Origin: Roseateles sp. DAIF2
GTDB taxonomy: Bacteria; Pseudomonadota; Gammaproteobacteria; Burkholderiales; Burkholderiaceae_C
Direction of reading: 5' to 3'
DNA length: 64,000 bases
Assembly (NCBI RefSeq): GCF_015624425.1
Contig: NZ_CP049919.1
Span: forward strand, 4,464,001 to 4,528,000
Part shown: piece by piece, positions 16,186-52,851 of the stretch
Position numbering within the stretch: position 1 is the first letter of the stretch
How the letters are laid out: each line of letters begins with the position of its first letter
Made by a program: the position numbers and the translations under genes
Notes under the pieces: model-generated
What the model saw: the letters and a program-made list of their open reading frames with translations, nothing else
Databases searched by the model: none
What the model was told of the DNA's origin: nothing

Positions 16186-17745
16186 TCAGGTCAGCCAGCC
16201 GGCACGGACCAGGACCTGGGCCAGCACCAGACCGGCGGTGAAGCCGAAGCCGACGAACAGCGCCATGCGCAGCAGGCGGTTGGTGCCGCGCTGCTCCTGC
16301 AGCAGGGCCAGCAGCAGCGCGCGCTCGCGGCCCTCGGTCTGGCGCTTCAGCGCATCGTGCAGCAGGCGCGGCAGCTCGGGGAAGAGCTGGGCATAGCGCG
16401 GCGCCTCCTTCTTGAGCTGGTTGACGAAGGCACGCCAGCCGACCTGCTCGTTCATCCAGCGCTCGAGGAAGGGCTTGGCGGTAGCCCAGAGGTCCAGCTC
16501 CGGGTCCAGTTGGCGGCCCAGGCCCTCGATGTTCAAGAGGGTCTTCTGCAAGAGCACCAGCTGCGGCTGGATCTCGACATTGAAGCGGCGCGAGGTCTGG
16601 AACAGGCGCATCAGCACCTGGCCCAGCGAGATGTCCTTCAGCGGCCGGTCGAAATGCGGCTCGCAGACCGCGCGCACCGCGCTTTCCAGCTCGTCGACCC
16701 GGGTCTCGGGCGGCACCCAGCCGGAGGCGATGTGCAGCTCGGCGACGCGCTTGTAGTCGCGCTGGAAGAAGGCGATGAAGTTCTGCGCCAGGTATTCCTT
16801 GTCGGTCTCGGTCAGGGTGCCGATGATGCCGAAATCCAGCGCCACATAGCGGCCGAAGGTGGCCGGATCGAGGCTGACCTGGATATTGCCCGGGTGCATG
16901 TCGGCGTGGAAGAAGCCGTCGCGGAACACCTGGGTGAAGAAGATCGTGACACCGTCGCGCGCCAGCTTCTTGATGTCGATGCCGGCGTCCTTCAGGCGCT
17001 GCAGCTGCGAGATCGGCACGCCGTGCATGCGCTCCATCACGATCACTTCGCTGCTGCACAGGTCCCAGTGCATCTCGGGCACCAGCACCAGGTCCAGGCC
17101 GTCCATATTGCGGCGCAGCTGGGCCGCGTTGGCGGCCTCGCGCACCAGATCCAGCTCGTCGTGCAGATAGGTGTCGAACTCGGCCACCACCTCGCGCGGC
17201 TTCAGGCGCCGGCCATCGGCCGAAAGGCGCTCGACCCAGCCGGCCAGGGTGCGCAAGAGGGCCAGGTCGTCCTCGATGATGTCCAGCATGCCCGGGCGCA
17301 GCACCTTGACCGCGACCTCGCGGCCATCGTGCAGCACCGCGAAATGCACCTGGGCGATCGAGGCGCTGGCCACCGGCTCGGCCTCGAAGCTCTTGAACAG
17401 CTGCTCGATGGGCTTGCCGAAGGCCTTCTCGACCAGGGCGCGCGACTGCTCGGCCGGGAAGGGTGGCACCCGGTCCTGCAGGCGGGACAGCTCCTCGATC
17501 ACGTCGCGCGGCAGCAGGTCGCGCCGGGTCGACAGCACCTGGCCGAACTTGACGAAGATCGGCCCCAGCCGCTCCAGCGCCAGGCGCAGGCGCGCGCCGC
17601 GCGGCTGCTCCCAGTTCCGGCCCAGCGAGATCAGGCGGCGCAGCAGGCGAGCACGGCGCTGCCGAAAGCCCGACAGCGCCAGATCATCGAGGCCGAAACG
17701 CGCGAAGGTCCAGGCGATGACCAGCAGCCGGGCGAGATACCTCAT
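16186..17745 (-). CDS. ubiB: Ubiquinone biosynthesis kinase/ATPase UbiB
   Basis: Atypical ABC1/ADCK-family kinase-like protein of 519 residues required for ubiquinone synthesis. The KxGQ motif (KFGQ, residues 66-69), the ATP-binding VAVKVLRP, the ExD-region [13 protein letters not shown], the catalytic-loop-like HADMHPGNI (about 282) and LDFGIIG are all present. Two C-terminal hydrophobic helices (last 25-30 residues) anchor it in the inner membrane. Its ATG overlaps the ubiJ stop by 4 bases (ATGA), so the two are translationally coupled. In related genomes ubiE usually lies just upstream of this pair; here ubiE is 33 kb away, beyond the EPS locus. Confidence 0.96.
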
Positions 17746-18260
17746 GGGCGCGGCTGGCCGGGCATCAGATGCGCGGCGCCCTTGGCCAGTGCCGCCATGC
17801 CCTGGGCCACGGCCCGGCCCCAGCGCGCCAGCTGGTGCGCGACCGCCGGGCCGAGCAGCTGGGCCAGGTCATCCTCGATGTCCCAGCGCAGGTTGTCCAT
17901 CAGCCAGCTCAGCTCGCCGGCCAGCGCCGCGTCGCCCTGCACCGCCACCTGCGGCTTGTCGCCGGCCAGCGCGCCCAGCGCCAGCGCGGCCGGGTTGCTG
18001 GCATCGACCTCGATGCGCAGCGCGTCCGCCGGTGCGGCGTCGAGCCGCTCCAGCAGGCCGGCACGGCTGATGCTCAGAGCCAGATCGGGCGCCGGGGGCA
18101 GCAGCGCGGGCCAGCCGCGCAGATGCACCACGATGGCGCGGCCGGCAAAGGGCGCGAGTCGCGTCGTCGCCACGGCCTCGCGGCCGATGACATGGTTAAG
18201 CAACAGGCAGATGCGATCCTGCACCGCCGGCGCCAAGAGTTTGGACCAGTCTTGAAACAT
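17742..18260 (-). CDS. ubiJ: Ubiquinone biosynthesis accessory factor UbiJ (SCP2 domain)
   Basis: Protein of 172 residues with an SCP2/sterol-carrier-like domain (about 35-115; [12 protein letters not shown] and a beta-alpha sandwich pattern) followed by a helical C-terminal half ([23 protein letters not shown]), which is the UbiJ layout. UbiJ with UbiK organises the soluble ubiquinone-synthesis complex and binds the lipid intermediates (known role). It is directly upstream of ubiB with a 4-base overlap. The 185-base gap before it also holds the divergent start of the EPS locus, so ubiJB expression must use a promoter in that gap rather than reading through from ubiE. Confidence 0.9.
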
Positions 18261-18445
18261 GGCGCGATTGTAGGCAGCGCTTACAACTCCAGCGAATTAG
18301 GGGGTAGTAGTCACCCGGAGGGGTCACGTGAATGAGCGAGAATTCGCGGTTCGAACCCAGGTCGGGAGGGGCCAGGGCCGGGACGCGTAAGTTGGCGGGT
18401 ATTGCACTCGCAAAGCCCAGACAAAACGCCAGGAGCGTGAGGACA
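18261..18445. promoter_or_regulatory. Divergent region between ubiJ and epsB; holds EPS-associated motif
   Basis: This gap carries promoters for ubiJB (-) and epsB (+). At 18295-18306 it contains ATTAGGGGGTAG, about 143 bases before the epsB ATG. A close copy (ATTAGGGGGGAG) lies in the same orientation about 130 bases before epsD at the other end of the locus. A good ribosome-binding site (TGAGGA) precedes ATG 18446. No consensus sigma-70 or sigma-54 promoter was convincing. Confidence 0.45.
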
Positions 18446-19840
18446 ATGTTCGAGGATCGCAGTTACAAGAGAACTTTTTACAGCGCACCCCAATCGGTCG
18501 AATCCTTGATTGCCGCCTTTTTGGAGCCCGGCATCATTGTTCTGAGTTATCTGGCCGTCAATGCGTATTTCAACGAACCGGTACTGCGCTCCACGCTGAC
18601 CCTGTGTCTGCTGGTATTCGCGCTGACCTTTCCCGGCCGCAACCGTTTTTCCGAACATCCGGTCAGCGCCGCGATCGATGTTCTGAGCTCGTGGGTGATG
18701 CTGCTGATCATTCTCGCCCTGTGCGGGTATGCGACCAGCAGCATGGGGTATTTCGAGAATCATGTGCTGTTGTGGTGGGCGGGTATCACACCGCTGCTAC
18801 AGATACTCGCGATCGAATTCGGCCGGCGCCTGCGCCGCTGGCAGGCCGCCCAGCCGCAGGCGCGCCGCCTGGCGGTGATCGTCGGCGGCAGTGCGCTGGG
18901 CGTGAAGGTGGCACGGGCGCTGCGCGAGGGCGGCGACCAGGGCAGCGATTTCCGCGGCTATTTCGACGACCGCCAGGACGACCGCCTGCATCCGGAGGCC
19001 GGCCCGCAGCTGCTGGGCACCCTGGCCCAGGTCGGCGACTATGTGCGCGAGCATGGTGTGCGCGAGGTCTACATCACCCTGCCGCTGGGCTCGCAGCCGC
19101 GCATCGTGCGACTGCTGGAGCAGTTGCAGGGCACGACCGCCTCGCTGTTCTTCGTGCCCGATGTGTTCGGCATCTCGATCATCCAGGGCCGGCTGCAGGA
19201 CATGAACGGCGTGCCGGTGGTCGGCATCTGCGAAACCCCGTTCACCGGCACCAACGAGCTGGTCAAGCGCATCAGCGACATCGTGCTGGCCAGCATCATC
19301 CTGGTGCTGATCTCGCCGATCCTGGCCGCGGTGGCACTCGGCGTGAAGCTCAGCTCACCCGGGCCGATCATCTTCAAGCAGCGCCGCAACGGCCTGGATG
19401 GCGAGGAGATCATCGTCTACAAGTTCCGCTCGATGCGGACCCAGGACAATGGTTCGGTCGTCAAGCAGGCCACCAAGGGCGACGCCCGCATCACGCCCTT
19501 CGGCGCCTTCATCCGCAAGACCTCGCTGGACGAGCTGCCGCAGTTCGTCAATGTGCTGCAGGGCCGCATGAGCATCGTCGGCCCGCGCCCGCATGCGGTG
19601 GCGCACAACGAGGAATACCGCCAGCTGATCAAGGCCTATATGGTGCGCCACAAGGTCAAGCCCGGCATCACCGGCTGGGCCCAGGTCAACGGCCTGCGTG
19701 GCGAGACCGACACGATCGACAAGATGAAGGCCCGCGTCGAATACGATCTGGAATACCTGCGCAACTGGTCGCTGGGCCTGGATCTGCAGATCATCGTGCG
19801 CACCGTGCGCCTGATGGTGTTCGACCGCCACGCCTACTGA
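18446..19840 (+). CDS. epsB: Undecaprenyl-phosphate sugar phosphotransferase EpsB (EPS priming enzyme)
   Basis: Polyprenol-phosphate hexose-1-phosphate transferase of 464 residues that starts repeat-unit synthesis by linking a sugar phosphate (usually glucose or galactose) to undecaprenyl phosphate. The N-terminal half has four membrane helices and a Rossmann-like CoA_binding_3 region (LAVIVGGSALGVKVARAL). A further membrane segment (IVLASIILVLISPILAAV) leads into the catalytic bacterial sugar transferase domain, with SPGPIIFKQRRNGLDG, the KFRSM motif, RKTSLDELPQ and IVGPRPH. The start at 18446 is set by TGAGGA 5-6 bases upstream; an in-frame ATG at 18332 would add a non-homologous leader. 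It opens the left (+) arm of the locus. Confidence 0.94.
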   Translation: MFEDRSYKRTFYSAPQSVESLIAAFLEPGIIVLSYLAVNAYFNEPVLRSTLTLCLLVFALTFPGRNRFSEHPVSAAIDVLSSWVMLLIILALCGYATSSMGYFENHVLLWWAGITPLLQILAIEFGRRLRRWQAAQPQARRLAVIVGGSALGVKVARALREGGDQGSDFRGYFDDRQDDRLHPEAGPQLLGTLAQVGDYVREHGVREVYITLPLGSQPRIVRLLEQLQGTTASLFFVPDVFGISIIQGRLQDMNGVPVVGICETPFTGTNELVKRISDIVLASIILVLISPILAAVALGVKLSSPGPIIFKQRRNGLDGEEIIVYKFRSMRTQDNGSVVKQATKGDARITPFGAFIRKTSLDELPQFVNVLQGRMSIVGPRPHAVAHNEEYRQLIKAYMVRHKVKPGITGWAQVNGLRGETDTIDKMKARVEYDLEYLRNWSLGLDLQIIVRTVRLMVFDRHAY

Positions 19841-19867
19841 TTGATGACACCTCTTCCGGGCAGGTCC

Positions 19868-21079
19868 ATGACGCATATAAATATTCACGGTTTCCCCCTC
19901 GCACTGCTCGCCCTGGCCGCCGGCGCGGCCCAGGCCCAGCAGAGCCCCTACTACATCGGCGGATCGCTGGGCGTGACCCATGTGTCCAACATCTACCGCA
20001 CCGGTGGCGTCCAGCCGCGCAACAACGACAACGTCACAACCGCCACCCTGCTGGCCGGCCTGGACCAGCGCCTGGGTCGCCAGCGCCTGTTCGGCGATGT
20101 CTCGCTGCGCAGCAACAGCTACGAGAACAACCGCTCGCTGCGCAACAACGGTTATGCGCTGAACGCAGGACTGGATTGGGAGACCATCGGCCGGCTGTCG
20201 GGGCAACTGAGCGTCAACTCCAATCGCAACCTGGCGCAGTTCAATCCCGGAGGCGGCGCGCCCTCGGTCACGAAGAAGAACATCGAACAAACCGACCAGG
20301 CGCGGGCCTCGGTGCGCTACGGACTGGCCTCGCTGCTGACCCTAGAAGGCTCGCTGACTCATCGACGCCGCGACTATTCGGCCAGCGAGTACGACGCCTA
20401 CGACTACCAGCAGGACACCGTCTCCGTGGGCCTGACCTACCGGCCCAGCAGCGCCCTGACCCTGGGCGTGGCGCTGCGCTATGGCGACGGCAAGTATCCG
20501 CATGTGCCGCTGGGCGGCGGCCGCTCTGCCGTCGACGACTTCACCAGCAAAAATGTGGACCTGACCGGTACCTGGGTGCCCAGCGCGGCCAGCACCTTGA
20601 GCGCAAGACTGAGTGCCAGCCGCCGCGACCGCAGCCTGGCCAGTTCGACCGACTTTTCCGGCGCCACCGGCAGCCTGACCTGGAACTGGCAACCGACCGC
20701 ACGCCTGAAGATCAACACCACCGTGATGCGGGACTCCGGCGACGAAACCTCGTTCTTCAACCTCGGCAATATCGGGGGCTTCACCAGCGACTACAGCCTC
20801 GTCACCAACAGCCTGCAGATCAATAGCAGCTACGAGCTGACAGGCAAAGTCCAGCTCGATGCCGGCCTGAGCCACTATGACCGATCCCTCAGCAACTCCT
20901 TCCAGGGCAATGGCGATGACAAGAGCACATCGCTGAGCCTGGGCCTGCGCTGGATGGTGACGCGCAACGGTCTGATCGGCTGCCAGATCAATCACGACAA
21001 GCGTAGCGGCCAGTCCCGGTTCTCCTCGCCCTACAGCGCCAACAGCTATGGCTGCTATGGACAGATCACGCTGCGTTAG
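19868..21079 (+). CDS. epsL: Outer-membrane beta-barrel EPS protein EpsL
   Basis: Protein of 403 residues with a clear signal peptide (MTHINIHGFPLALLALAAGA, cut after AQA). The rest is made of alternating amphipathic strands (repeated S/T-x-S-x-x-aromatic patterns, ending in an aromatic/Arg C-terminus, YGQITLR) typical of a 16-18-stranded outer-membrane barrel. It matches the EpsL type first described in the Methylobacillus EPS operon by position and architecture. A role in export or surface retention of the polymer is inferred. ATG 19868 has AGG close upstream; an alternative ATG at 19844 gives a less typical signal peptide. It follows epsB by 27 bases. Confidence 0.85.
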   Translation: MTHINIHGFPLALLALAAGAAQAQQSPYYIGGSLGVTHVSNIYRTGGVQPRNNDNVTTATLLAGLDQRLGRQRLFGDVSLRSNSYENNRSLRNNGYALNAGLDWETIGRLSGQLSVNSNRNLAQFNPGGGAPSVTKKNIEQTDQARASVRYGLASLLTLEGSLTHRRRDYSASEYDAYDYQQDTVSVGLTYRPSSALTLGVALRYGDGKYPHVPLGGGRSAVDDFTSKNVDLTGTWVPSAASTLSARLSASRRDRSLASSTDFSGATGSLTWNWQPTARLKINTTVMRDSGDETSFFNLGNIGGFTSDYSLVTNSLQINSSYELTGKVQLDAGLSHYDRSLSNSFQGNGDDKSTSLSLGLRWMVTRNGLIGCQINHDKRSGQSRFSSPYSANSYGCYGQITLR

Positions 21080-21087: not shown

Positions 21088-22119
21088 ATGAGAAACCAAA
21101 AAATCCTGCTGACCGGCGCCACCGGCTACATCGCCTCGCATACCTGGCTGGCCCTGCTGGAGTCCGGCTTCGACGTGGTGGGCGTCGACAACTTCGCCAA
21201 CAGCTCGCCCGAAGTCCTGAACCGACTGCAGCGGCTATCGGGCCAGGCTCCCGTCTTCGAGAAGGCGGATGTGGGCGACGCCGCCGCGCTGGACGCGGTG
21301 TTCGCCGCCCACAAGCCGGCCGCGGTGGTGCATTTCGCCGCCTTCAAGGCGGTCGGCGAATCCACCACGATGCCGCTGGCCTATTACCGCAACAATATCG
21401 GCGGCCTGATCAACACCTGCGAAACGATGCGTCGGCATGGCTGCTCGCGCATGGTGTTCAGCTCCAGCGCGACGGTCTATGGTGCGCCTGCACCCACCGA
21501 CCTGCCGCTGCGCGAGGACGCGGCGCTGTCGGCGGTCAATCCTTATGGCGCCACCAAGCTGATGGGCGAGACCATCCTGCGCGACCTGGGCGCGGCCGAG
21601 CCGGATTGGCAGACCGCCTGCCTGCGCTATTTCAATCCGGTCGGTGCGCATGAAAGCGGCCTGATCGGCGAGGATCCGCGCGGCATTCCGAACAATCTGA
21701 TGCCCTATGTGGCCCAGGTCGCGGTCGGCCGCCGCGCCGAGCTGCAGGTCTTCGGCGACGACTACGACACGCCCGATGGCACCGGCGTGCGCGACTACAT
21801 CCATGTGATGGACCTGGCCGAGGGCCATGTCGCTGCGCTGCGCTTCCTGCTGAACGGCCGCGAATCGATCACCGCCAACCTCGGCACCGGTCGAGGCTAC
21901 AGCGTGCTGGATCTGGTGCGAGCCTACTCGGCCGCCAGCGGCCGCCCGATTCCATATCGCATTGCTCCGCGTCGCACCGGCGACGCGGCCGCCTGCTGGG
22001 CCGACGCCAGCCTGGCCAATGAAAAGCTGGGCTGGTCGGCCCGACATGACCTTGTGCGCATGTGCGAGGACAGCTGGCGCTGGCAGAGCATGAACCCCCA
22101 GGGATTCGAAAAATCATGA
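21088..22119 (+). CDS. galE: UDP-glucose 4-epimerase
   Basis: Extended short-chain dehydrogenase of 343 residues. The NAD-binding GATGYIASHT motif lies at residues 10-19, the catalytic Ser/Tyr in FSSSATVYG and YGATK (YxxxK), and the GalE-type RYFNPVGAHESGLIGEDPRG loop is present. It interconverts UDP-glucose and UDP-galactose. The GY-x-x-S-H form of the glycine motif is normal for GalE. The stop overlaps the manC start (ATGA), so translation is coupled. It supplies UDP-galactose for the EPS or for priming. Confidence 0.93.
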   Translation: MRNQKILLTGATGYIASHTWLALLESGFDVVGVDNFANSSPEVLNRLQRLSGQAPVFEKADVGDAAALDAVFAAHKPAAVVHFAAFKAVGESTTMPLAYYRNNIGGLINTCETMRRHGCSRMVFSSSATVYGAPAPTDLPLREDAALSAVNPYGATKLMGETILRDLGAAEPDWQTACLRYFNPVGAHESGLIGEDPRGIPNNLMPYVAQVAVGRRAELQVFGDDYDTPDGTGVRDYIHVMDLAEGHVAALRFLLNGRESITANLGTGRGYSVLDLVRAYSAASGRPIPYRIAPRRTGDAAACWADASLANEKLGWSARHDLVRMCEDSWRWQSMNPQGFEKS

Positions 22120-23567
22120 GCAAGAACAGCCTTCCCATTCAGGTCCAGCCGGTCATCATGGCCGGCGGCAGCGGCACGCGGCTGTGGCCGCTGTCACGGG
22201 CCGGCTATCCCAAGCAATTCCTGGTGCTGGAAGGCAATAGCAGCCTGTTTCAGCAGGCCGCGCAGCGCCTGGCCGGCCTGGCCGCGCCGGATCTGGCCCT
22301 GCAAGCCCCGCTGATCGTCGGCAACGAGGAGCATCGCTTCCTGGTGCTGGACCAGTTGCGCGAAGCCCGTCTCGAACCCGGCGCCGTGCTGCTGGAACCG
22401 CTGGGCCGCAACACCGCGCCGGCCCTGACCCTGGCCGCCCTGCAGGCCCAGGCAGATGGCGGCGATCCGGTGCTGGTGGTCACGCCGGCCGACCAGACCG
22501 TCACCAACCCGGCCGCCTTCACCGAATCACTGCAGCGGGCGGTGCGCGAAGCCGCGGACGGCGCGATCGTGATCCTGGGCATCACGCCCGACCGCCCGGA
22601 AACCGGCTATGGCTATATCCGCGCCGACCAGACCGGTACCGGCCTGGCCGTCGCCCGCTTCGTCGAGAAGCCCGACCTGGGCACCGCCGAGGGCTATCTG
22701 CGCGACGGTGGCTACTACTGGAACAGCGGCATGTTCGTGCTGCGCGCCAGCACCTGGATTGCCGCGCTGGAACGCTTCCGCCCCGACATCCTGGCCGCGA
22801 CCCGCAGCGCCTTTGCGGCCCGCGGCACCGATGCCAAGTTCGTGCGGCCGGGCAAGGCCGAGTTCGCGGCCGTGCCCAGCGAGTCGGTTGACTATGCAGT
22901 GATGGAGCGCTGCCCCGGCAGCGGCATCGCGCTGGCGATGGTGCCGCTGGATGCGGGCTGGAACGACCTGGGCGCCTGGGAGGCGGTGTGGCAGGTTGCG
23001 GCCAAGGATGAGGCCGGCAATGCCAGCCGCGGCGACGCCATCGTCACCGACAGCCGCAACACCCTGGTACATGCCACCAGCCGGCTGGTCTCGGTGGTCG
23101 GGCTCGACGATGTCGTGGTGGTCGAGACCGCCGACGCGGTGCTGGTGGCCGACCGCAGCAAGAGCCAGGACGTCAAGAAGATCGTCCAGCAACTCGACAG
23201 CAGCCAGCGCGGCGAGCATGCGCTGCATCGCAAGGTGCACCGCCCCTGGGGTTCGTACGACAGCATCGACCACGGCCCGCGCCACCAGGTCAAGCGCATC
23301 ATGGTCAAGCCCGGCGCCACCCTGAGCCTGCAGATGCACCATCACCGCGCCGAGCATTGGATCGTGGTTTCCGGCACCGCCGAGGTCACCGTGGGCGACA
23401 AGGTGGTCCTGCTCAGCGAAAACCAGAGCACCTACATCCCGCTGGGTGTCACCCATCGCCTGGCCAATCCGGGCAAGCTGCCGCTGGAGATCATCGAGGT
23501 CCAGTCCGGCTCCTATCTCGGCGAGGACGACATCGTCCGCTTCGAGGACACCTACGGCCGCAAGTGA
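22116..23567 (+). CDS. manC: Mannose-1-phosphate guanylyltransferase / mannose-6-phosphate isomerase
   Basis: Bifunctional enzyme of 483 residues that makes GDP-mannose. The nucleotidyltransferase domain begins with [16 protein letters not shown] (residues 13-28) and YPKQFL, and includes VTPADQT and the FVEKPDL active-site lysine. The C-terminal type II phosphomannose isomerase cupin has RPWGSY, the metal ligands in [11 protein letters not shown], and GTAEVTVGD. Start ATG 22116 overlaps the galE stop by 4 bases. GDP-mannose feeds gmd-fcl (GDP-fucose) encoded 3.5 kb downstream and may also donate mannose directly. No phosphomannomutase gene is in the window. Confidence 0.96.
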
Positions 23568-23587
23568 AAACAAGGGAAGCAAAGGAC

Positions 23588-24649
23588 ATGACCATCCTCG
23601 TCACCGGCGGCGCCGGTTTCATCGGCAGCAACTTCGTGCTGGACTGGCTGGCCCAGTCCGACGAGAAGGTCGTCAATCTCGACGTCCTGACCTATGCCGG
23701 CAATCTGGAGAATCTGGCCGACCTGAAGGACGATGCGCGCCATCTGTTCGTGCAGGGCGACATCTGCGATCGCGCGCTGCTCGACCGCTTGCTGGCCGAG
23801 CATCGGCCGCGCGCGATCGTGCATTTCGCCGCCGAGAGCCATGTGGATCGCTCGATCAGCGGCCCGGGCGCCTTCATGCGCACCAATGTCGAAGGCACCT
23901 TCGCCCTGCTGGAGGCCGCGCGGGCCTACTGGGGCGCGCTGGAGGGGGAGGCCAAGACGGCCTTCCGCTTCCACCATGTCTCCACCGACGAGGTCTATGG
24001 CTCGCTGAAGCCCGAGGATCCGCCCTTTGCCGAGACCAACCCCTACGAGCCCAACAGCCCCTACTCGGCCAGCAAGGCCGCCAGCGACCATCTGGTGCGC
24101 GCCTGGCACCACACCTACGGCCTGCCGGTCGTCACGACCAACTGCTCGAACAACTACGGCCCCTATCACTTCCCCGAGAAGCTGATCCCGCTGATGATCG
24201 TCAACGCGCTGGCCGGCAAGCCGCTGCCGGTCTATGGCGATGGCCAGCAGATCCGCGACTGGCTCTATGTGAAGGACCATTGCAGCGGCATCCGCGCGGT
24301 GCTGGCCGGCGGCGCCCTGGGCGAGACCTACAACATCGGCGGCTGGAACGAGCAGGCCAATATCGATATCGTCAAGACGGTCTGCGCGCTGCTGGACGAG
24401 CTGCGCCCCGACCCAGCCGGCTCCTATGCCCGCCTGATCACCTATGTGAAGGACCGCCCCGGTCATGACCGCCGCTACGCGATCGACGCCCGCAAGATCG
24501 AGCGCGAGCTGGGCTGGCGCCCGGCCGAGACCTTCGAGACCGGCATCCGCAAGACGGTGCAGTGGTATCTGGACCATCCGGAATGGGTGGCCCGCGTGCA
24601 GAGCGGCGCCTACCGCGACTGGGTCTCCAAGCAATACGGTGGCGCATGA
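23588..24649 (+). CDS. rfbB: dTDP-glucose 4,6-dehydratase
   Basis: Second step of dTDP-L-rhamnose synthesis, 353 residues. NAD-binding [11 protein letters not shown] lies at residues 6-16, the catalytic Thr-Asp-Glu in STDEVYGSL, the YSASK motif (YxxxK), and [14 protein letters not shown] in the C-terminal domain. AAAGGA stands 3-4 bases before ATG 23588. The order rfbB-rfbD-rfbA-rfbC is complete and overlapping, so all four dTDP-rhamnose enzymes are co-translated. Confidence 0.97.
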
Positions 24650-44159: not shown

Positions 44160-45397
44160 TGCAACGCCTCTGCCAGACGGCCAGCCGAGCCATGCGCACG
44201 CTGTTTCCAGTCAGGAATGCGAGAGGCAAGGAAGCGCCGCAATTGTTCCTCCTCGGTGCACAGCTTTTCGAAGTACTCGAACAAAGTTTGCTTGCTTACT
44301 GCGGGAGTCTCAAGAACCAGCGACTCGTCACCAAAAAGGTCTCGATTAAGTCCCTTAGCCTTAATGCTATAGGCTATAGAGACGGTTGGCACTTGACTGG
44401 AAAGTGCGCCGATGGTCGCATGCGTTCGGGCACCAATAAAGAACCTGCACTGCGCCAAGACACCTTTCAGCTGTGCTGCATTCAAGGTTGCGGGGACCAA
44501 GGTCACGCGCCCGTCATGGGCGCCCAGCATATTCAGAATTTCTTGCATGTAATATGAGTCGCTATTAACTCTATTACCATCCAGCGGATCAACGTGAGGT
44601 AACAAAAGAATTCCCAGCTCACTCTTATTCAAGACCTCCTGGAGAAAACCAACTACTTCCTTCTGTAGTACGCTATAGGCCTCTCCGGCCGGCCGGAATT
44701 TCTGTATCAGCGGACTGATATTAAAACCAAGCACACCATTTTTACTATTGCGAGGCCAAAAGCTCGAAACATCAATCGACTCTGGTGCCATCACGAAAGC
44801 GCCGTCCGCCACCAGACTGACGTTGCTCGAGACTCCAATTGATTTCAGATATTCGAGAGATATGGTTTCCCGCACAGTGACGCATTCAATGCGCCGAAGA
44901 AATTGAGCAACGTGAGTTTCGGCAAACGGCTCCTTGCTAAAAGGGCCAATAGATGCCCCCCAAACCATGACTGGAATTCCCAGACGTTTCGCATGCGCCG
45001 CGAACTGGACATGCCAAGCCAACGAGGCCAGCCCATAGTCCAGCGTGATGTTGTCGCCACCAATAACCAGAAGCGCGTCACAGCCACGGAGATCATTTTC
45101 GATGTCGACCGGCAGGCGATAGCTCGGGAAGAAGCGCCTTGCAACCGACGGAATCAAGCGGAGCAGGCGGCTCCATATCTTCAACTCGGAGGGAAAGGGC
45201 AACGCCCGTACAAAGCGCACCCCCTGTTTGGCTGCATCGGGCCACTGCGGTGCATCGAGATCAGGTCGAAAGCTTGGAACCAAAACTTCGACATCATTAC
45301 CAAACTGACTCTTCAGGAGCTGAAGAGTTGATCGAACCAACGCCTCGCAACCGCGATTTCCAAAATCCGTCTGGCCAGAGAGATAGAAACGTTTCAT
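44156..45397 (-). CDS. Polysaccharide pyruvyl transferase family protein
   Basis: Protein of 413 residues of the CsaB/WcaK-type pyruvyltransferase family. TDFGNRGCEALVRSTL is the N-terminal loop; VIGGDNITLDYG, WGASIGPFS and TVRETISLEYL follow. The C-terminal half has LLPHVDP and CRFFIGARTHATIGALSSQVPTVSIAYSIKAKG, the conserved donor-binding region. It is expected to attach a ketal pyruvate from PEP to a hexose, giving the EPS a negative charge. It overlaps the FrhB-like gene by 4 bases. G+C is lower than in epsI and upstream genes. Confidence 0.9.
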   Translation of the reverse strand: MKRFYLSGQTDFGNRGCEALVRSTLQLLKSQFGNDVEVLVPSFRPDLDAPQWPDAAKQGVRFVRALPFPSELKIWSRLLRLIPSVARRFFPSYRLPVDIENDLRGCDALLVIGGDNITLDYGLASLAWHVQFAAHAKRLGIPVMVWGASIGPFSKEPFAETHVAQFLRRIECVTVRETISLEYLKSIGVSSNVSLVADGAFVMAPESIDVSSFWPRNSKNGVLGFNISPLIQKFRPAGEAYSVLQKEVVGFLQEVLNKSELGILLLPHVDPLDGNRVNSDSYYMQEILNMLGAHDGRVTLVPATLNAAQLKGVLAQCRFFIGARTHATIGALSSQVPTVSIAYSIKAKGLNRDLFGDESLVLETPAVSKQTLFEYFEKLCTEEEQLRRFLASRIPDWKQRAHGSAGRLAEALQ

Positions 45398-45444: not shown

Positions 45445-46155
45445 TTACGCAACAAGACCCGCCAGACGGCGGCGATATTGTGGGTCCACAGCTTTCAGCA
45501 GATTTTCTGCAAATCTCTGCTGCAACAGAAATGCTTGCTGAGCATCACGATCAATGCTCGAAATTCTGAAGAGCAGCCCGTCGGGGATCAGATCGCGAAA
45601 TCCATACTGCATCTCAACCATTTTCTTGTTGACGCCACCCCGCACTACGGTCTCGCCAATTACCGTCCAGTAGGTCACAGGCTCGTAGCGCTGATTGCCC
45701 AAGACAGTTTCCAAACGCCGAGCCGGGATCATTGAATTGGCGAATGCGAGATCAGCAGGCTGGTTCGAACGCACCTGGAACCCCTGTGCCGGATAGCAGA
45801 CCTCTGGATAGTGCATCTGCAGTCCATCCCGCTGATCGTTGCCATATGCAATGGACAACATGATGCGATGCCCGCTGCTATTCACATAGGTGCGCGATAG
45901 CGTTTGGCTGTACAGCTGCTTCAGCATGGCCTCCTGTTGGGGGTTGACCACGCCACCCACAGCTGCCTCATCCATACGCCAATCGCCAAACTGCTTGGGC
46001 ACGACCTGTTCCAGCTGGAAGTCCCCATGCAAGGTGGATAGGCTTGTTGTCGGCGTGAGCTTCCAGCCCAGGCTGGCAGCGGCCCCCATCAGGATCAACG
46101 CCAACGCTGCACGGCGCTGCTGGCGCGGCAGGGTGTTCTCGTTACGCTTGCTCAT
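45445..46155 (-). CDS. epsI: Exosortase-associated protein EpsI
   Basis: Protein of 236 residues with an N-terminal signal/anchor helix (about 16-32) and the EpsI domain. VPKQFGDWRM is the family's start motif, followed by YSQTLSRTYVNSSGHRIMLS, DGLQMHYPEVCYPAQGF (the conserved HxPEVCYPAxG motif) and VTYWTVIGE. EpsI accompanies exosortases in EPS loci and its exact role is unknown. The gene overlaps xrtB by 4 bases. As with other B-type systems the two act together. Confidence 0.93.
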   Translation of the reverse strand: MSKRNENTLPRQQRRAALALILMGAAASLGWKLTPTTSLSTLHGDFQLEQVVPKQFGDWRMDEAAVGGVVNPQQEAMLKQLYSQTLSRTYVNSSGHRIMLSIAYGNDQRDGLQMHYPEVCYPAQGFQVRSNQPADLAFANSMIPARRLETVLGNQRYEPVTYWTVIGETVVRGGVNKKMVEMQYGFRDLIPDGLLFRISSIDRDAQQAFLLQQRFAENLLKAVDPQYRRRLAGLVA

Positions 46156-47036
46156 GCCGTTTGCCCCTTGCGCAGACGGTTTGCGCCCAGGCGCAGCATG
46201 CCGTCGGTGGCGATGATCAGCATCAGTGCGCTGAGGAACAGCACCATGCCCGCGAAACCATGCAGGAAGCCCTGGCCGGCCTCATCGCCGAAGTGGTAGG
46301 TAATCAGCGTCAGCACCATCACGCGGATCACGTTGGCGGCGAAGCTGATCGGCACGATCAGGATGGCCAGCGCGATATTGCGGAACAGCGAGGCGTGACG
46401 CACGATGTTCAGGTACAGCAGGCCCAGAGCCTCCAGCGTGAACAGCGTGTGCAGGCCGGCGCAGGCATCCGCCACCAGCAGCTGATAGGGGCCGATCTGC
46501 AGGATCACGCCGGTACGGCTGATCGGATAGCCCGCCGAGTACAGGATATGTTCCGCCACATAGGACACGGCCATCTTCATCGGCTGTGTCAGCGCGTCGA
46601 CCACGGCTCCCGGCAAGGGGATCATGAAGAACATGAAGAAGATCGCGAAGCCGATCGCCTTGAGCTGGCGCGGGCCGCGCAGCAGCAGCACGATGCCGCA
46701 GACCATCGCGATCGACGATCCGACCTCGAACAGCCAGATGCCTTGCGAGCGTCCGATGGCATAAGCCAGACCGCCGAGCACCAGCAGCGGCCAGGCCAGC
46801 CAGGGCCGCGGCGCCGAGGCCTCGATGTCCATCAGCTCGCCCCAGCGGCGGTAGATCAGCCAGATGGTCACGCCCAGCACGATCGGACCGTGACCCTGCT
46901 CGTCCGAGGCCCAGAGGCCGCCGAACAGGCTGATCAAGGTCGGCACATACAGCAGCGCCAGACCCAGGCCGGCGATCAGCCAGGGCAGGAGATGGGCGCT
47001 ACGGCCCTTGTCGGCCGGAGCCAGCGCAGCACTCAT
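46152..47036 (-). CDS. xrtB: Exosortase B (XrtB)
   Basis: Membrane transpeptidase-like protein of 294 residues with about eight hydrophobic segments. The exosortase triad is visible: Cys192 in VADACAGLHTLF, Arg238 in ANVIRV and His259 in FLHGFAGM (numbers from ATG 47036). An adjacent GTG at 47039 is an alternative start. The B-type is inferred from the paired EpsI and the EpsD-E-F-G context. Exosortases process PEP-CTERM proteins, but no gene in this window ends in a PEP-CTERM tail, so its substrate is elsewhere or the protein acts directly in EPS synthesis. Confidence 0.94.
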   Translation of the reverse strand: MSAALAPADKGRSAHLLPWLIAGLGLALLYVPTLISLFGGLWASDEQGHGPIVLGVTIWLIYRRWGELMDIEASAPRPWLAWPLLVLGGLAYAIGRSQGIWLFEVGSSIAMVCGIVLLLRGPRQLKAIGFAIFFMFFMIPLPGAVVDALTQPMKMAVSYVAEHILYSAGYPISRTGVILQIGPYQLLVADACAGLHTLFTLEALGLLYLNIVRHASLFRNIALAILIVPISFAANVIRVMVLTLITYHFGDEAGQGFLHGFAGMVLFLSALMLIIATDGMLRLGANRLRKGQTA

Positions 47037-47047
47037 CACGGGCGACC

Positions 47048-47956
47048 TCAGATCTCGTTCATGATCACCCCGGCCAGCTTGGCGGGGCTGTTGCTGAGCG
47101 TGGCCACCAGGTCCTGCACCGCGTTGACGCGGGTCGTGCCCTTGCGGGCCAGGGCCAGCGCGGCACCGCAGCGAGCGGCGATCACCGCATAGTCGGCACC
47201 GTGGATGGCGGCCGGCGTGTCGACGATCACATGGTCGAACTTCGACACCAGCTCGCGCATCAGCAGGCCGAAGGCGGGCCGCTCGACCAGCTCCATCGGG
47301 TTGGGCGGCATCGTGCCCACCGGCATCACGAACAAGCTGGGCAGGTCGGCCACCGGGCGAATCACATTGGCCTCGGCGCGGCCGGACAGGATGCCCGACA
47401 AGCCGGTGCTGTTGTCGATACCGAACACCTCGTGCTGGCGCGGGTTGCGCATGTCCGCATCGACCAGCAGGGTGCGGCCACCCAGCTGGCTGAAGGCGAT
47501 CGCCATATTGGCGGCGAAGAAGGTCTTGCCGTCGCCGCTGTCATGGCTGACCACCGCAATGGCGCGGCGCGGCTCATCGGCATTGAACAGCCGCATATTG
47601 ATCTGGCTGCGCAGCACGCGGAAGGCTTCGGCCTGGGCGCTGAAGGGCTTGCTGGCCAGCACCAGCTCGTCGCTGAGCTTGGTTCCGCCGCCCGGAGCAT
47701 AGGGATAGTGGAACTGCTGGCTCAGCGCCCACAGCACGTCCTCGCCCTTGGCCAGACCCAGAGCCACCGCGGCCTCGCCGAACTTGGTGCCATGGCTCTT
47801 CTGATAGGACAGGATGCGCTCGACCTGCTCGGCGCTGAGGTTGTTGGCCTCGGCCAGGATGTGGCCGATCGAGCGGTCCTGCAAGGCGGTCCGGGCGTCC
47901 TGGGCATTGCGCTCGGCGCTGCCGAGCGTGGATTCTTTGTAGTTGGACATGGTCAT
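47048..47956 (-). CDS. epsG: EPS chain-length tyrosine kinase-like protein EpsG
   Basis: Protein of 302 residues. Residues about 25-95 form an MshEN-like N-terminal domain (IGHILAEANNLSAEQVERIL, FGEAAVALGLA, then DVLWALSQQF). A BY-kinase/MinD-like domain follows: variant Walker A SHDSGDGKTFFAANMA, Walker A' TLLVDADMRNP and Walker B HVIVDTPA. The C-terminus has no tyrosine cluster, as in other EpsG proteins. It works with EpsF to control polymer length. ATG 47956 overlaps the epsF stop (TGATG); an internal ATG at 47950 is possible. Confidence 0.92.
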   Translation of the reverse strand: MTMSNYKESTLGSAERNAQDARTALQDRSIGHILAEANNLSAEQVERILSYQKSHGTKFGEAAVALGLAKGEDVLWALSQQFHYPYAPGGGTKLSDELVLASKPFSAQAEAFRVLRSQINMRLFNADEPRRAIAVVSHDSGDGKTFFAANMAIAFSQLGGRTLLVDADMRNPRQHEVFGIDNSTGLSGILSGRAEANVIRPVADLPSLFVMPVGTMPPNPMELVERPAFGLLMRELVSKFDHVIVDTPAAIHGADYAVIAARCGAALALARKGTTRVNAVQDLVATLSNSPAKLAGVIMNEI

Positions 47957-49386
47957 CAGGAAGCCTTGGTTGACGAAGCGGCATGACCGATCAGTCGCTG
48001 ATGCAGACGTGCGTCGATCTTGCGGCCGGCTGCGCTGCGCGAGTTCGGACCGGGCAACAGGCCGATCACCGGCAGGCCTACCAGGGCTTCGATGTCGTCG
48101 TTGTCGCGCACACGGCGGTCGCGCAGCTCGGCGCCCAGCACCACGCCGGTACCGAGCAGCAGGCCCACAAACACGGCCAACACGCTGTTCAGCAGCACCT
48201 TGGGCGAGGAATGCTCCAGCGGCGGAACGGCTTGGTTCAGCAGGCTGACGTTGCTGGACGTGGCCTGGCTCTCGATGCTGGTCACCGACAGGCGCTGCAT
48301 GATGTTGTCGTAACTACGCTGGGCGTTCTCGACATCGCGCAGGATCAGCGCGCCCTCGTCGCGCACCTGCTTCATCTTCAGCACCTTGGAGCGCTGGGCA
48401 TCCAGTTCGGCCCGGGTCTGGGCCTCGCGCTGGCGGCTGATGTTGCCGCTGATGCCGACACCGGCCGACAGGCGCCGCACCTCGCTCTCGAGGCGCTGGC
48501 GCAGCTCGCCGATATTGGCCTTCAACTCCACCACCTGGGGGTTGTTGTCACCCAGACGGGCGCTGATCTCCTGCAGCTTCGCCTCCTGGCGCGACAGGTC
48601 GGCGCGCAACTGGGAAACCACCGGGTTGTTGGTCACCTCCTGCAGCTTGTCGGCGGAGCCGGCATTGGCCTGGGCCTGGCGGCTGGTGGCCTCGGCACTG
48701 AGCGACTGCAGCATCACCAGCTGAGTGGACAACTCGTTCAGACGCTGGTTCTCGATGTCCATGCGCTCGTCGGTCATCACCACGCCGTTCTCACGCTGGA
48801 AGGCCGACAGCTGGGCTTGCGCCTTCTCCAGCGCTTCGCGAGCATCCTTGGCGCGGGCGTCGAAGAAGCTGCTGTACTGCTTGGCCGGATCGACACGCAG
48901 ATCGACCGCGGTATCGATATAGGCCTGCACGAAGGCATTGGCCAGCGCTGCAGCAAAGCGCGGGTCGGCCGCACGGTAGGCGATGTTGATGACGCTGGAT
49001 TCGCGCGACGGCTTGACGTCCAGTTCCTTCTGGAACAGTGCCACCAGCCAGGTCTCGATATCGCCCTGCCCCTTGGCCTCATCCATCCATTGCTCGCGGA
49101 TCTGCGCGTTCTCGGTCAGGCGGAGCGTGCGCACCACGCGACGGGCCACCCGGTCGCTCTGGATGATGTCGATCTGGGTCGCCATCACGGCCGGGGTCAT
49201 CATCGACTGATAGGCAATCGCAGCCAGCGGGTCCGGCTTGACATCCACGACGACGCTCGCGGTCGCGGTGTACTTTTTCGGCAGCAGCAAACTGACCACG
49301 ACGGCCGGAATCACCACCGCCAGCAGCACGATCAGGAACAACACCTTGCGTGCAAACAGAATGGAGAGAAATTGGCGAAAACTCAT
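47956..49386 (-). CDS. epsF: Chain-length determinant protein EpsF (Wzz/PCP type)
   Basis: Polysaccharide co-polymerase of 476 residues. The Wzz domain starts with FARKVLFLIVLLAVVIPAVV (TM1, about 13-33) and KKYTATASVVVDVKPDP. A long periplasmic coiled coil (about 170-345) follows, and TM2 with the proline-rich PPLEHSSPKVLLNSVLAV motif lies near 390-425. A short cytoplasmic tail follows. It sits upstream of epsG, whose kinase domain it contacts. Length and order fit the EpsD-E-F-G set. Confidence 0.94.
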   Translation of the reverse strand: MSFRQFLSILFARKVLFLIVLLAVVIPAVVVSLLLPKKYTATASVVVDVKPDPLAAIAYQSMMTPAVMATQIDIIQSDRVARRVVRTLRLTENAQIREQWMDEAKGQGDIETWLVALFQKELDVKPSRESSVINIAYRAADPRFAAALANAFVQAYIDTAVDLRVDPAKQYSSFFDARAKDAREALEKAQAQLSAFQRENGVVMTDERMDIENQRLNELSTQLVMLQSLSAEATSRQAQANAGSADKLQEVTNNPVVSQLRADLSRQEAKLQEISARLGDNNPQVVELKANIGELRQRLESEVRRLSAGVGISGNISRQREAQTRAELDAQRSKVLKMKQVRDEGALILRDVENAQRSYDNIMQRLSVTSIESQATSSNVSLLNQAVPPLEHSSPKVLLNSVLAVFVGLLLGTGVVLGAELRDRRVRDNDDIEALVGLPVIGLLPGPNSRSAAGRKIDARLHQRLIGHAASSTKAS

Positions 49387-49411: not shown

Positions 49412-50281
49412 TTAGAACAGGCTCTCGCGCACGTACACGACGTCGCCATCCTTCAGCGGCTCATCCATCGCCGGCTGCAGCACCTGCACCTTGCCGTCGG
49501 CGCTCTTGCGGTGCACGCGGATGCCCTTTTCGGTGCCGCGCAGGGTCAGGCCGCCGCCGGTGGCCAGGCTCTGCATCAGGGTCATGCTGCGCTCCAGGCG
49601 CATCGCGCCGGGGCGCTGCACCTCGCCGTAGATATAGACCATCGGCGCGCGGTCGACCCACAGCACGTCACCGTTCTGCACCACGATGTCCTGGCCGCGG
49701 CCGCCCGGGGCGAACACGCTGGGCAGGTCGATCTCGACGCGATAGGGCTGGCCATTGCGCGTGCCGGACAGCACCAGGATCTCGGCACCGGTGGTGGTGA
49801 CGCCGCCGGCATTGGCCAGCAGGTCGGTCAGGCGCATGTCGGCGACTTCCAGCGGATAGCGGCCCGGACGATTCACCTGGCCCAGCACGCTGGCCTGGTT
49901 GCCCTTGACCTGCATCACGACGATGGTGACCTGGGGCACTTTGACGAAGTTGCCGTTCTTCAGCCCGTCGGCGATCAGCTTCTCGGCCTGCGTGGCCGAC
50001 AGGCCGCCGATGCGCACCGTGCCCAGCAGCGGGTAGGACACCACGCCGGTTTCGCCGACACGGGTCTCCAGGGTCAGGTCGGGGTTCTGATAGACGCTGA
50101 TGCGGATCACGTCGCCCGCGCCCAGGCGGTATTCGGCGGGGGCCGTGGCGCCTTGCTGCTGCGCCAGCGCCGCCGGGCTGGCGGCCAGCAGTGCGCATCC
50201 CAGGCTGGCCGCGGTGGCCAGGGCGATCAGCGCGGCGCGGGGCCGGCTCGGCGTCTTCTGCATCATCATCGTCGTCTTCAT
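49412..50281 (-). CDS. epsE: Polysaccharide export protein EpsE (Wza/PES family)
   Basis: Export protein of 289 residues with a signal peptide (AALIALATAASLGCALLAASPA). The Poly_export domain reads YRLGAGDVIRISVYQNPDL, with VSYPLLGTVRIGGLSA; SLBB repeats follow (ASVLGQVNRPGRYPLE and VYIYGEVQRPGAMRLE) and the end has LKDGDVVYVRESLF. A Cys lies within the signal region but without a clean lipobox. It is predicted to form the outer-membrane or periplasmic export channel. ATG 50281 overlaps the TAA stop of epsD (TAATG). Confidence 0.95.
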   Translation of the reverse strand: MKTTMMMQKTPSRPRAALIALATAASLGCALLAASPAALAQQQGATAPAEYRLGAGDVIRISVYQNPDLTLETRVGETGVVSYPLLGTVRIGGLSATQAEKLIADGLKNGNFVKVPQVTIVVMQVKGNQASVLGQVNRPGRYPLEVADMRLTDLLANAGGVTTTGAEILVLSGTRNGQPYRVEIDLPSVFAPGGRGQDIVVQNGDVLWVDRAPMVYIYGEVQRPGAMRLERSMTLMQSLATGGGLTLRGTEKGIRVHRKSADGKVQVLQPAMDEPLKDGDVVYVRESLF

Positions 50282-51291
50282 TACTTCAGGCCCATTCCCT
50301 TGGAGATGGTGTTCGCGTCCAGGCCGCTGGCGGCCGGCGCGGCGGGGGCTGCGGGCGTGGCCACGGTCGGCGCGGCGGCTTCGGGTGCCGATGCGGCAGC
50401 CGCGGCAGCGCCCGGGGCGCCCTCGGCGAACTTGCCGACATATTCGACCTTGGCCGCCTCGCGCAGCGACTTCATGTCCTTCTGCGCCAGCTCGGCCTTG
50501 CGCTGGTTGGTCAGGAACTGCTCGATCGCCGGGCGCGCGCGCGCCTCGTCGACCGGCTGGCTGCGCGAGCCGACCAGGAACAGCACGGTCAGGCCGTTCG
50601 GGTTCGGGGTGACGGCGGAGTCGCCGTCCTTCATCCGGGCGATCGCGTCGACGCTGGCCAGCGGCAGCTGCTCGGCGGCGCGCACCGCCTGGTTGCCGGC
50701 AAAGCGGAAATCATGCGACTTCAGATATTCCGCAAACTCGCCCATATTCTTGGCCTCCTGGAGTTTGCTGCGAATTTCCGCAAACTGCTCCGGCTTGGCC
50801 TCGATCACGAGTTCCTGCAGGCTATATATACGGCGATCCTTGAACAGGGCCGGTTTGTCGTTGTAATACTTGGAAACTTCGTCGGTCGTGGGTTTCGAGA
50901 CGCCCTCGCCCACCCGCTCCAGATAGGCGCGCGCGATGATTTCGCGCTTGGCGGCCTCGATCTGCTGCACGACACGCGGGTCGCGGTCGAGCTTCAGGTC
51001 CTCGGCCTTCTGCACCGCCAGCTCCTGGTCGATCAGGCGCTCCAGCACCTGGCGGCCCGCGGCCTCGGCCTGCTCCGGGCGCAGGCCCGGCTGGCGCTGC
51101 AGCACATAGTTGATCTGATGGACGGTGATCTCTTCCTTGTTCACCTTGGCGGCCGTCTGCGAGGCCTTCTCGCCCTTGCTGCCGCCGCCGCAGGCGGCCA
51201 GCAGCACGGCGGTGGTGACGGCCAGGGCCAAGCCGGTCAGACGCAGGCCCGGCAGGGTGCGGGCGGCTTGAGTGGTGGTGGTCAGATTCAT
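50281..51291 (-). CDS. epsD: EpsD-family peptidyl-prolyl cis-trans isomerase
   Basis: Lipoprotein of 336 residues. The signal peptide ends in LLAAC (Cys about 34) with CGGGSKG. A SurA/parvulin-like layout follows: N-terminal helical part (VHQINYVLQRQPGLRPEQA), ERLIDQELAVQKAEDL and a rotamase-like region (RIYSLQELVIEAKPEQ, FRFAGNQAVRAAEQLPL). The C-terminal 50 residues are Ala/Pro-rich. EpsD is the first gene of the minus-strand EPS operon. The start is ATG 51291 because the preceding in-frame sequence lacks a signal peptide. Confidence 0.92.
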   Translation of the reverse strand: MNLTTTTQAARTLPGLRLTGLALAVTTAVLLAACGGGSKGEKASQTAAKVNKEEITVHQINYVLQRQPGLRPEQAEAAGRQVLERLIDQELAVQKAEDLKLDRDPRVVQQIEAAKREIIARAYLERVGEGVSKPTTDEVSKYYNDKPALFKDRRIYSLQELVIEAKPEQFAEIRSKLQEAKNMGEFAEYLKSHDFRFAGNQAVRAAEQLPLASVDAIARMKDGDSAVTPNPNGLTVLFLVGSRSQPVDEARARPAIEQFLTNQRKAELAQKDMKSLREAAKVEYVGKFAEGAPGAAAAAASAPEAAAPTVATPAAPAAPAASGLDANTISKGMGLK

Positions 51292-51688
51292 GGTTATGTC
51301 TTTCTTCCTTCGCTCATCGTCTACGGCGCGGGCCCAACTCATCCCGCCCACGCATGCTGCACCGCACAAGCCGGCCGGACGCGATCGGCGAGTGTAACTT
51401 TGCAAAATGACAATTGACTCCCCCCTAATCCGTTCGGCAATTCGGGCAAATCCCCTGGCCGGAATTTCTCGGAACCGGGTGAAACCCACGTTGTATGCGG
51501 CTGCCACCGGGTTCCGGGGGCCACCCAGGGACAGACCCGATTCGGCCTCCGGGGTTCCCGAGACCCCCGTGAACCGGGGGGAAGAAAAGCGTTACGGTGA
51601 GTATCGACACCGGCCCGTCATGCCCGGGCCCTAGGGAATCGCAGGCGTCAGCCGCGGGAGATGGCGGAGATGGCGGCCGCGCGCCGCC
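51292..51688. promoter_or_regulatory. Region between ubiE and epsD: epsD promoter region with repeats
   Basis: No gene was recognised in these 397 bases. On the minus strand ATTAGGGGGGAG lies at 51429-51418, about 130 bases before the epsD ATG, like the motif before epsB. Further from epsD, GGTTCCGGGGG (51510-51520) pairs with CCCCCGTGAACC (51564-51575) with one bulge, around a smaller hairpin CGGGGTTCCCG (51550-51560). These could form a structured end of the ubiE transcript or a regulatory site. Confidence 0.45.
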
Positions 51689-52420
51689 TCAGCACTTGAT
51701 GCCGGCGTGCAGCGCCACGACGCCGGCGCTGAGGTTGTGCACATCCACATGGCCGAAGCCGGCCGTCTTCATCATCGCCTTCAGCTCGGCCTGGGCCGGA
51801 TGCATGCGGATCGACTCGGCCAGGTAGCGGTAGCTCTCGGCATCGCCGGCGATCATCTGGCCCAGGCGCGGCAGGATCTTGAACGAATACCAGTCATAGG
51901 GTTTGCGCAGCGGCGCGGCCACCTTGGAGAACTCCAGCACCAGCAGCCGCCCGCCCGGGCGCAGCACGCGGCACATCTCGGCCAGCGCCTGGTCCTTGTG
52001 GGTCATGTTGCGCAGGCCGAAGGCCACGCTGACCAGGTCGAAGCTGCCGTCCTTGAAGGGCAGCTTCTCGGCGTCGCACAGCCCGGTCGGCAGCACCAGG
52101 CCCTCGTTGAGCAGGCGGTCGCGGCCCTGGCGCAACATCGCCTCGTTGATGTCGGTGTGCACCACCATGCCGGTCTCGCCGACCTTGCGCGCGAAGGCGC
52201 GCGACAAATCGCCGGTGCCGCCGGCGATGTCCAGCACGCGCTCGCCCGGCTTCAGGTTGGCCACGGCCACCGTGTAGGTCTTCCAGGCGCGGTGCAGACC
52301 CATCGACATCAGGTCGTTCATCACGTCATAGCGCGAGGCGACGGAATCGAACACGCCGCGCACGCGGCCGGCCTTCTCCTGCTCGTCGACGGTCTGGAAG
52401 CCGAAATGGGTGCTGCTCAT
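51689..52420 (-). CDS. ubiE: Ubiquinone/menaquinone C-methyltransferase UbiE
   Basis: SAM-dependent methyltransferase of 243 residues. [21 protein letters not shown] is the family N-terminus, [12 protein letters not shown] is the SAM site (motif I), and [17 protein letters not shown] and [17 protein letters not shown] are UbiE signatures. It methylates the ring of the ubiquinone precursor. The gene is 10 bases after DUF971. The ubiJ-ubiB genes that often follow now lie beyond 33 kb of EPS genes, and the Tim44-domain gene often found between ubiE and ubiJ is not in the window. Confidence 0.97.
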
Positions 52421-52431
52421 GATGCGATGTC

Positions 52432-52851
52432 TCAGTGATGGTGGTGCCCGCAGGCCGAGCCGGCCTTGCCCGGCATCGGGTCGTCGCGGCCCAGGCCGGC
52501 GGCGGCCAGCTTGGCCTCGTAGTCGGCCCAGAACTCGGCCGCGCGGCTGCCCAGCTGGTAGAGATAGTCCCAGGAGAAGATGCCGCTCTCGTGGCCGTCG
52601 TCGAACTGCGGCCGGATGCCGTAGTGGCCCACCGGCTCCAGCGCCGCGATGCCCACCTCGCGCTTGCCGGTCTGCAAGGTTTCCTGCCCCGGCCCATGGC
52701 CCATCACCTCGGCCGAGGGCGAGAACACGCGCATCAGCTCGAAGGGGATGGAAAAGCGCTCGCCGTCGGCAAAGGCGATCTCCAGCAGACGCGACTGCTG
52801 GTGCACGGTGATCTCGGTGGGCTGCGGGGTGGTGGGCGTCAATCCGGCCAT
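52432..52851 (-). CDS. DUF971 family protein (GBBH-like N-terminal domain)
   Basis: Small protein of 139 residues with the gamma-butyrobetaine hydroxylase-like N-terminal (DUF971) domain: [26 protein letters not shown], split by the [19 protein letters not shown] segment and ending with [14 protein letters not shown]-terminal CGHHHH tail suggests metal binding, as in many relatives. ATG 52851 is chosen because homologues start near here; a longer frame upstream is out of character. It is commonly located beside ubiE and a HIT gene (known context). Function unknown. Confidence 0.9.

Follow-up and report, generated by a model that had tools for sequence, protein, structure and literature searches.

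In the genome of Roseateles sp. DAIF2, a locus for exopolysaccharide (EPS) synthesis of the exosortase B (XrtB) type lies between the ubiquinone genes ubiE and ubiJ-ubiB. We analyzed it in a window of 64 kb, bases 4,464,001 to 4,528,000 of the 6.01-Mb single-contig genome (G000), and window coordinates are used throughout; the other two genomes of the genus are called G001 and G002, and Pelomonas sp. Root405 is L083. Our reading, to which we give a probability of roughly 0.77, is that the locus was inserted once, long ago, and has since been a fixed-address, exchangeable EPS locus. An XrtB-type (methanolan-like) locus would have come between a ubi-linked Tim44-domain gene and ubiJ in the ancestor of a large clade, where it would have been tolerated through a promoter element that already existed at the ubiJ start codon, and the ubi-linked Tim44 gene would then have decayed and been lost. 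The site would since have been the usual EPS address of the clade. Its edges (epsB to wecB on the ubiJ side, epsE and epsD on the ubiE side) would be inherited with the genus, and the glycosyltransferases and Wzx of the middle, joined in this genome by the xrtB module, would have been exchanged, most simply through homologous recombination within those conserved edges. Later, most of the locus may have been lost in several lineages, which kept manC, an epimerase gene or epsD.

An earlier note on this window had placed the DUF971 gene and ubiE on one side of the locus and ubiJ-ubiB on the other, with 185 bases between ubiJ and epsB; these coordinates and strands hold (Table 1). To see the site in relatives, we searched for UbiB within the genus (three genomes) and across 180 family genomes, of which 174 gave a match at 1e-120. 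From a list of 90, 80 family genomes were examined further; they were chosen mainly by UbiB similarity to the window and not at random, so that genomes with an unsplit ubi cluster are under-sampled. Among the 80, UbiE has a match in 78 (1e-70), XrtB exceeds its cut-off in 48 and Tim44 is found in 65. The ubi-site loci of 53 relatives were mapped.

In 32 of the 80 genomes, counting that of the window, XrtB lies no more than 10 kb downstream of ubiE, our positional definition of a full locus (G117 was called full from positions alone). Besides the window's genome, these are G001, G002, and 29 genomes from outside the genus. Beyond XrtB, 25 of the 32 have ubiB on the same contig, and ubiJ is divergent from epsB in all 25; in G169 and G054 a few kilobases of other sequence stand between ubiE and epsD. 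The EPS locus has the same chromosomal neighbors in related species, which is what makes a locus a fixed-address one. In another 23 genomes the cluster is unsplit as judged by position, with Tim44 after ubiE and ubiB nearby, and ubiJ is present in order in all 14 of these that were fetched (in G107 with a 5.9-kb insert of other genes). The order ubiE, Tim44, ubiJ, ubiB that the earlier note had given for many Burkholderiales is therefore borne out in these genomes, and the locus does separate genes that stand together in other family members. A further nine genomes (G112, G023, G092, G007, G061, G055, G077, G140, and G039) carry what we call a remnant: XrtB is missing from the site, and manC and/or the epimerase gene that follows epsL stands between ubiE and ubiJ in each of the nine. 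Beside ubiE, epsD is retained in three of them (G112, G023, and G061), and the rml block is retained in G112 and G023. The remnant epimerase gene of G077 and G140 (L062 and L063) lies on the ubi strand, opposite to that of the other remnants having it.

The age of the split was read from a tree of RpoB, which is encoded outside the locus, with rows for 62 genomes extracted by tblastn. One branch with support of 100/100 sets 14 unsplit genomes apart from 30 full, 9 remnant, and 9 unresolved ones; the bootstrap had not converged, and within the split clade many forks, often the deep ones, are open. On this tree, unsplit versus split requires one change, and full versus remnant seven further changes. 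The split is old, reaching the base of a large clade, and because all 14 unsplit genomes lie on one side of the branch, a single insertion suffices to explain it. The unsplit arrangement would be the older state, given that ubiE, ubiJ, and ubiB are adjacent in Escherichia coli, as we take them to be, and that Tim44 still follows ubiE in four genomes inside the split clade (G130, G048, G092, and G055). The clade is probably the Sphaerotilaceae, where Pelomonas sp. Root405, the source of the only named XrtB locus that adjoins ubiE, is filed. The RpoB row of G002 has a branch of 0.42 beside one of 0.003 for G001, and it scores above the others against TIGR02013.

In the four split-clade genomes that keep it after ubiE, Tim44 stands ahead of the EPS or sugar genes. 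The insertion point is accordingly between Tim44 and ubiJ, and the loss of Tim44 came later. The ubi-linked Tim44 gene is lost in the window's genome, as had been noticed; its loss is an event separate from, and later than, the arrival of the locus. A genome-wide search, which had been proposed for the missing gene, finds a single Tim44 gene at 3.77 Mb. Its protein falls in a second paralogue clade (100/100), which rules it out as the displaced ubi neighbor, and both paralogues coexist in G053, G168, G135, G130, G092, G115, and G055. In this tree, G048, G130, and G055 drew a long-branch warning.

We then compared the locus with that of G002. On the ubiJ side, identity is 90% for ubiB, 86% for ubiJ, 83 to 95% for epsB (in two pieces) and 72% for epsL, and the first epimerase, manC, rml, and wecB genes are 80 to 90% identical. 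Genes between 33 and 45 kb have no counterpart or show 29 to 45% identity, and epsI, xrtB, epsG, and epsF reach 46 to 59%. DNA matches break off at 32,897 and begin again at 46,216 (69%) and 48,048 (77%). The G+C content is 57% over 31,804 to 45,397, falling to 50 to 53% over 40 to 46 kb, compared with 70 to 71% in the flanks. In the EpsE tree, G000, G001, and G002 group together (99/94). With largely the same rows, the XrtB tree rejects that grouping, the log-likelihood being 116 lower (approximately unbiased [AU] test, p = 1.5e-58), which indicates that xrtB has been exchanged. The XrtB of the window shares 77% identity with the Pelomonas sp. Root405 protein and 56% with that of G002. In the free XrtB tree the window, Pelomonas, and a Rubrivivax metagenome-assembled genome (MAG; L084) group with copies from outside the site (100/99). 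Both the XrtB and the EpsE tests were run without eight long-branch site rows of XrtB (G119, G082, G058, G175, G128, G104, G109, and G144); in a separate XrtB tree, those of G104, G109, G144, and G128 fall among or beside non-site XrtB. The edges descend with the genus and the center does not follow the species, as in exchangeable loci. We suggest, as a tentative idea, that the exosortase module (epsF-epsG-xrtB-epsI) travels with the glycosyltransferase and Wzx set as one unit at a clade-wide exchange site. If so, exosortase type and glycan type would swap together, which would suggest a match between XrtB and its polysaccharide.

The space available for a ubiJB promoter is limited to the 185-base gap, in keeping with the earlier note. 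All 25 split genomes have TACAAT (24 genomes) or TAGAAT (G150) ending 6 to 8 bases before the ubiJ ATG. Over both strands of the 25 split loci, 26 of 5,827 ATGs are preceded by the hexamer at a distance of 6 to 9 bases, each of the 26 being a ubiJ start (two of them in G104), although the genomes are related and these counts are not independent. In the window, the only TACAAT so placed before an ATG is that of ubiJ. Among remnants the hexamer is present in six of nine; G055 has GAGAAT, G039 CAGAAT, and G077 none. In unsplit loci, the looser form [ACT]A[ACT]AAT occurs 7 to 10 bases before the ubiJ ATG in 12 of 14, the best of several starts and spacings being taken, and the start of ubiJ is uncertain in the two exceptions, G005 and G100; the background there is 18 of 2,503 ATGs, the ubiJ ones included. 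From its sequence and placement, the hexamer is probably a -10 element, older than the insertion, that would give a leaderless ubiJ mRNA. That ubiJ already had its own start-codon promoter is the likely reason why the ubi cluster tolerated the locus.

A second motif, YTAGGGGG, precedes both EPS operons, at 18297 (plus strand) and 51428 (minus strand), which are its only copies in the window. It is also present at both locus ends in G002, G078, and G009, and over 50 sources 10 of 11 copies precede epsB or epsD (epsB region: 25 genomes; epsD region: 14). Genome-wide, there are 32 DYTAGGGGG sites, from which no regulon emerged.

The earlier note implied that the split was recent and particular to this genome. 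An interior low in G+C and an XrtB that differs from the genus type would fit such an insertion of the whole locus, but site mapping in relatives and the RpoB tree refute it: the locus stands beside ubiE in G001, G002, and 29 others, and its edges are 72 to 95% identical to those of G002. Moreover, the 64-kb window has no tRNA gene, and the window proteins scanned contain neither an integrase nor a transposase domain, in line with the absence of integrase, insertion sequence, or tRNA at the edges that had been reported. We therefore give this explanation practically no credence. We also consider it very improbable that EPS and ubiquinone genes are kept together by shared control through the divergent ubiJ-epsB region. 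The constancy of that arrangement (25 of 25 same-contig cases) is what such control would predict; however, the XrtB locus is off the site in nine split genomes and the ubi genes stay, and ubiE and ubiB are far apart in other genomes.

A stepwise or repeated build-up, in which sugar-nucleotide genes were the first to settle beside ubiJ and were joined at that place later, perhaps several times, by genes for EPS export and exosortase, is unlikely but has more in its favor. Nine of 80 genomes have sugar-nucleotide genes and no XrtB at the site, which could be stages of such a build-up, and G092 and G055 combine these genes with a surviving Tim44. Furthermore, placing the EpsE of site loci (24 rows, including L083) in one clade against 18 others was rejected (AU p = 0.018), so that either some lineages had their edges replaced as well or there was more than one entry of the locus. 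On the other hand, epsD in three of the nine remnants and the rml block in G112 and G023 are what deletions predict, and on the RpoB tree the remnants G023 and G112 pair with the full-locus genomes G150 (100/100) and G117 (94/84), respectively.

Besides the EpsE result and the possible status of the remnants as intermediates, several other observations weigh against a single old insertion followed by exchange at a fixed address. Sixteen of the 80 genomes could not be placed (ubi genes on different contigs, rearranged, or without a UbiE match), ubiE and ubiB are more than 1 Mb apart on one contig in G062 and G160, and XrtB lies elsewhere than at the ubi site in G077, G140, and G092. When the window XrtB was held with the site rows, the AU test rejected the arrangement with L083 (p = 0.011) but not with L083 and L084 (p = 0.115); the XrtB of the window, Pelomonas, and the Rubrivivax MAG may represent another allele class belonging to the site. 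A first test (AU p = 5.0e-5) had seemed to establish an outside origin of XrtB, but it omitted L083, the nearest relative and itself beside ubiE, and we do not rely on it. A consensus scan found no promoter and no -35 element before ubiJ, nor did it find a terminator after ubiE. Exact hairpins occur within 160 bases after ubiE in 21 of 26 split genomes, and 13 unsplit genomes were searched over 60 bases only, which is no fair control. Finally, a Roseateles MAG (L110) carries an EPS locus related to that of the window beside unrelated genes and has no UbiE match. At L110:1-3500, epsD follows genes resembling a phosphatase and a methyltransferase.

Polysaccharide loci that occupy a fixed address and exchange their content are a kind already known. 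The pneumococcal cps locus, the Klebsiella K locus, and the surface polysaccharide loci of Enterobacteriales have conserved flanks and edges around an exchangeable center. The locus described here resembles such capsule and O-antigen loci in its conserved edges and exchangeable center and differs from them in that its anchors are ubiE and ubiJB, that the exosortase module also differs, and that the pattern is seen between species. The proteobacterial ubiE-ubiJ-ubiB cluster, whose order is kept together with Tim44 in all 14 fetched unsplit genomes, is here split by about 33 kb and has lost the ubi-linked Tim44. The EPS locus of the window has the recognizable genes of the methanolan-type XrtB locus of Methylobacillus sp. 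12S and other Betaproteobacteria, namely epsB, epsD-E-F-G, epsI, and those for exosortase B and an EpsL-like protein. The same eps gene set occurs in many of 80 named XrtB loci; some of the 80 are cut by contig ends, and in the available flanks only that of Pelomonas sp. Root405 (L083) has a ubi gene, whereas ubi genes form the edges in the window. In Methylobacillus, disruption of EpsH did not abolish methanolan production, according to the available part of the report (PMC1569441).

The clusters of Aquincola tertiaricarbonis RN12 and Rubrivivax gelatinosus, members of the same bacterial family, likewise combine EPS with PEP-CTERM genes, as far as the available parts of the articles go (PMC9850573, PMC3684757). 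In these parts, no ubi gene is mentioned for either cluster, and the word "ubiquinone" is absent from the main text of PMC9850573; there, the Aquincola epsB2 product belongs to TIGR03013 and its gene lies beside prsK/prsR, unlike in the window. Among the matches listed from the open-licence PubMed Central literature, titles and abstract beginnings describe no EPS locus between ubiE and ubiJB. What is new is a clade-wide EPS address, a likely reason for its tolerance by the ubi cluster, and a mosaic in which exosortase and sugar-transfer genes differ from those of the genus. The clean anchors mean that EPS types of a large environmental clade, which includes floc and biofilm formers, could be extracted and compared like capsule loci. 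The site is also a natural experiment in which the gene cluster of a central pathway survived a cut, apparently through the start-codon promoter of ubiJ. What exosortases do with EPS is an open question, to which the change of xrtB together with the sugar-transfer genes is relevant.

The genes of the locus are listed in Table 1. Exosortase B, the B-type EpsI, EpsD, EpsE, and EpsF exceed the curated cut-offs of XrtB-type EPS locus families, while EpsG and EpsL have these families as their best matches and stay below the cut-offs. The earlier note had described all intervening genes as EPS genes. The families between ubiJ and ubiE are mostly polysaccharide-related, in agreement with this, but the open reading frame (ORF) at the Wzy position (41182-42696) has no family match. 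There is no Pfam match for ubiJ either. ORFs 29103-30578 and 30187-31803, both on the plus strand, are antisense to minus-strand genes, which explains their lack of a Pfam match.

Table 1. Features of the ubi-flanked EPS locus in window coordinates
Feature	Position	Strand	Basis
ubiB (ABC1 atypical kinase family)	16186-17745	-	PF03109, 264.8 bits; 88-90% identity in G078, G001, G002
ubiJ	17742-18260	-	Named from position and conservation: upstream of ubiB in fetched relatives with both
Hexamer TACAAT (-10-like)	18267-18272	-	3' end 6 nucleotides before ubiJ ATG; predicted leaderless start
ubiJ-epsB divergent region, 185 bases	18261-18445	.	Sequence
epsB, WcaJ-type priming glycosyltransferase	18446-19840	+	TIGR03023, 498 bits, over cut-off
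epsL-like, outer-membrane protein	19841-21079	+	TIGR03014, 207.3 bits (under cut-off 275); position shared by 25 loci
Sugar-nucleotide block: epimerase, manC, rmlB, rmlD, rmlA, rmlC	21088-26986	+	Pfam; 80-87% identity in G002
gmd and wcaG-like	27039-29155	+	Pfam; patchy in relatives, no good counterpart in G002
UDP-glucose/GDP-mannose dehydrogenase	29172-30515	-	Pfam
NAD-dependent epimerase	30568-31797	-	Pfam
wecB-like UDP-GlcNAc 2-epimerase	31800-32903	+	PF02350; 90% identity in G002; last DNA match before variable interior
Variable lower-G+C interior: WbsX, DUF1972 glycosyltransferase (GT), GT1, hexapeptide transferase, GDSL-like, GT2, Wzx, Wzy-position ORF, FrhB-like, pyruvyl transferase	33046-45397	.	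Pfam
epsI and xrtB (exosortase B)	45445-47039	-	NF045609, 291.6 bits; TIGR03113, 401.4 bits (cut-off 275); both over cut-off
epsG and epsF	47048-49386	-	TIGR03029, 285.5 bits (under 313.8); TIGR03017, 544.7 bits (over); 57% and 59% identity to G002
epsE and epsD (epsD start uncertain)	49412-51507	-	TIGR03028 and TIGR02925, over cut-off; 83% and 74% identity in G002
ubiE	51689-52420	-	PF01209; 94% identity in G002
DUF971 gene	52432-52851	-	PF06155; 86% identity in G002

Outside the locus, a second exosortase-family gene with a weak XrtB match lies at G000:C1:2762954-2763694. The gene next to ubiB (12164-16117) encodes a large sensor that combines a Reg_prop propeller with Y_Y_Y, GAF, and HATPase domains. 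At the other end, M13 and S8 peptidase genes stand beside the DUF971 gene (53009-56972), seemingly without a counterpart at that place in G002, where the DNA match passes from 52,918 to 57,314 within about 60 bases.

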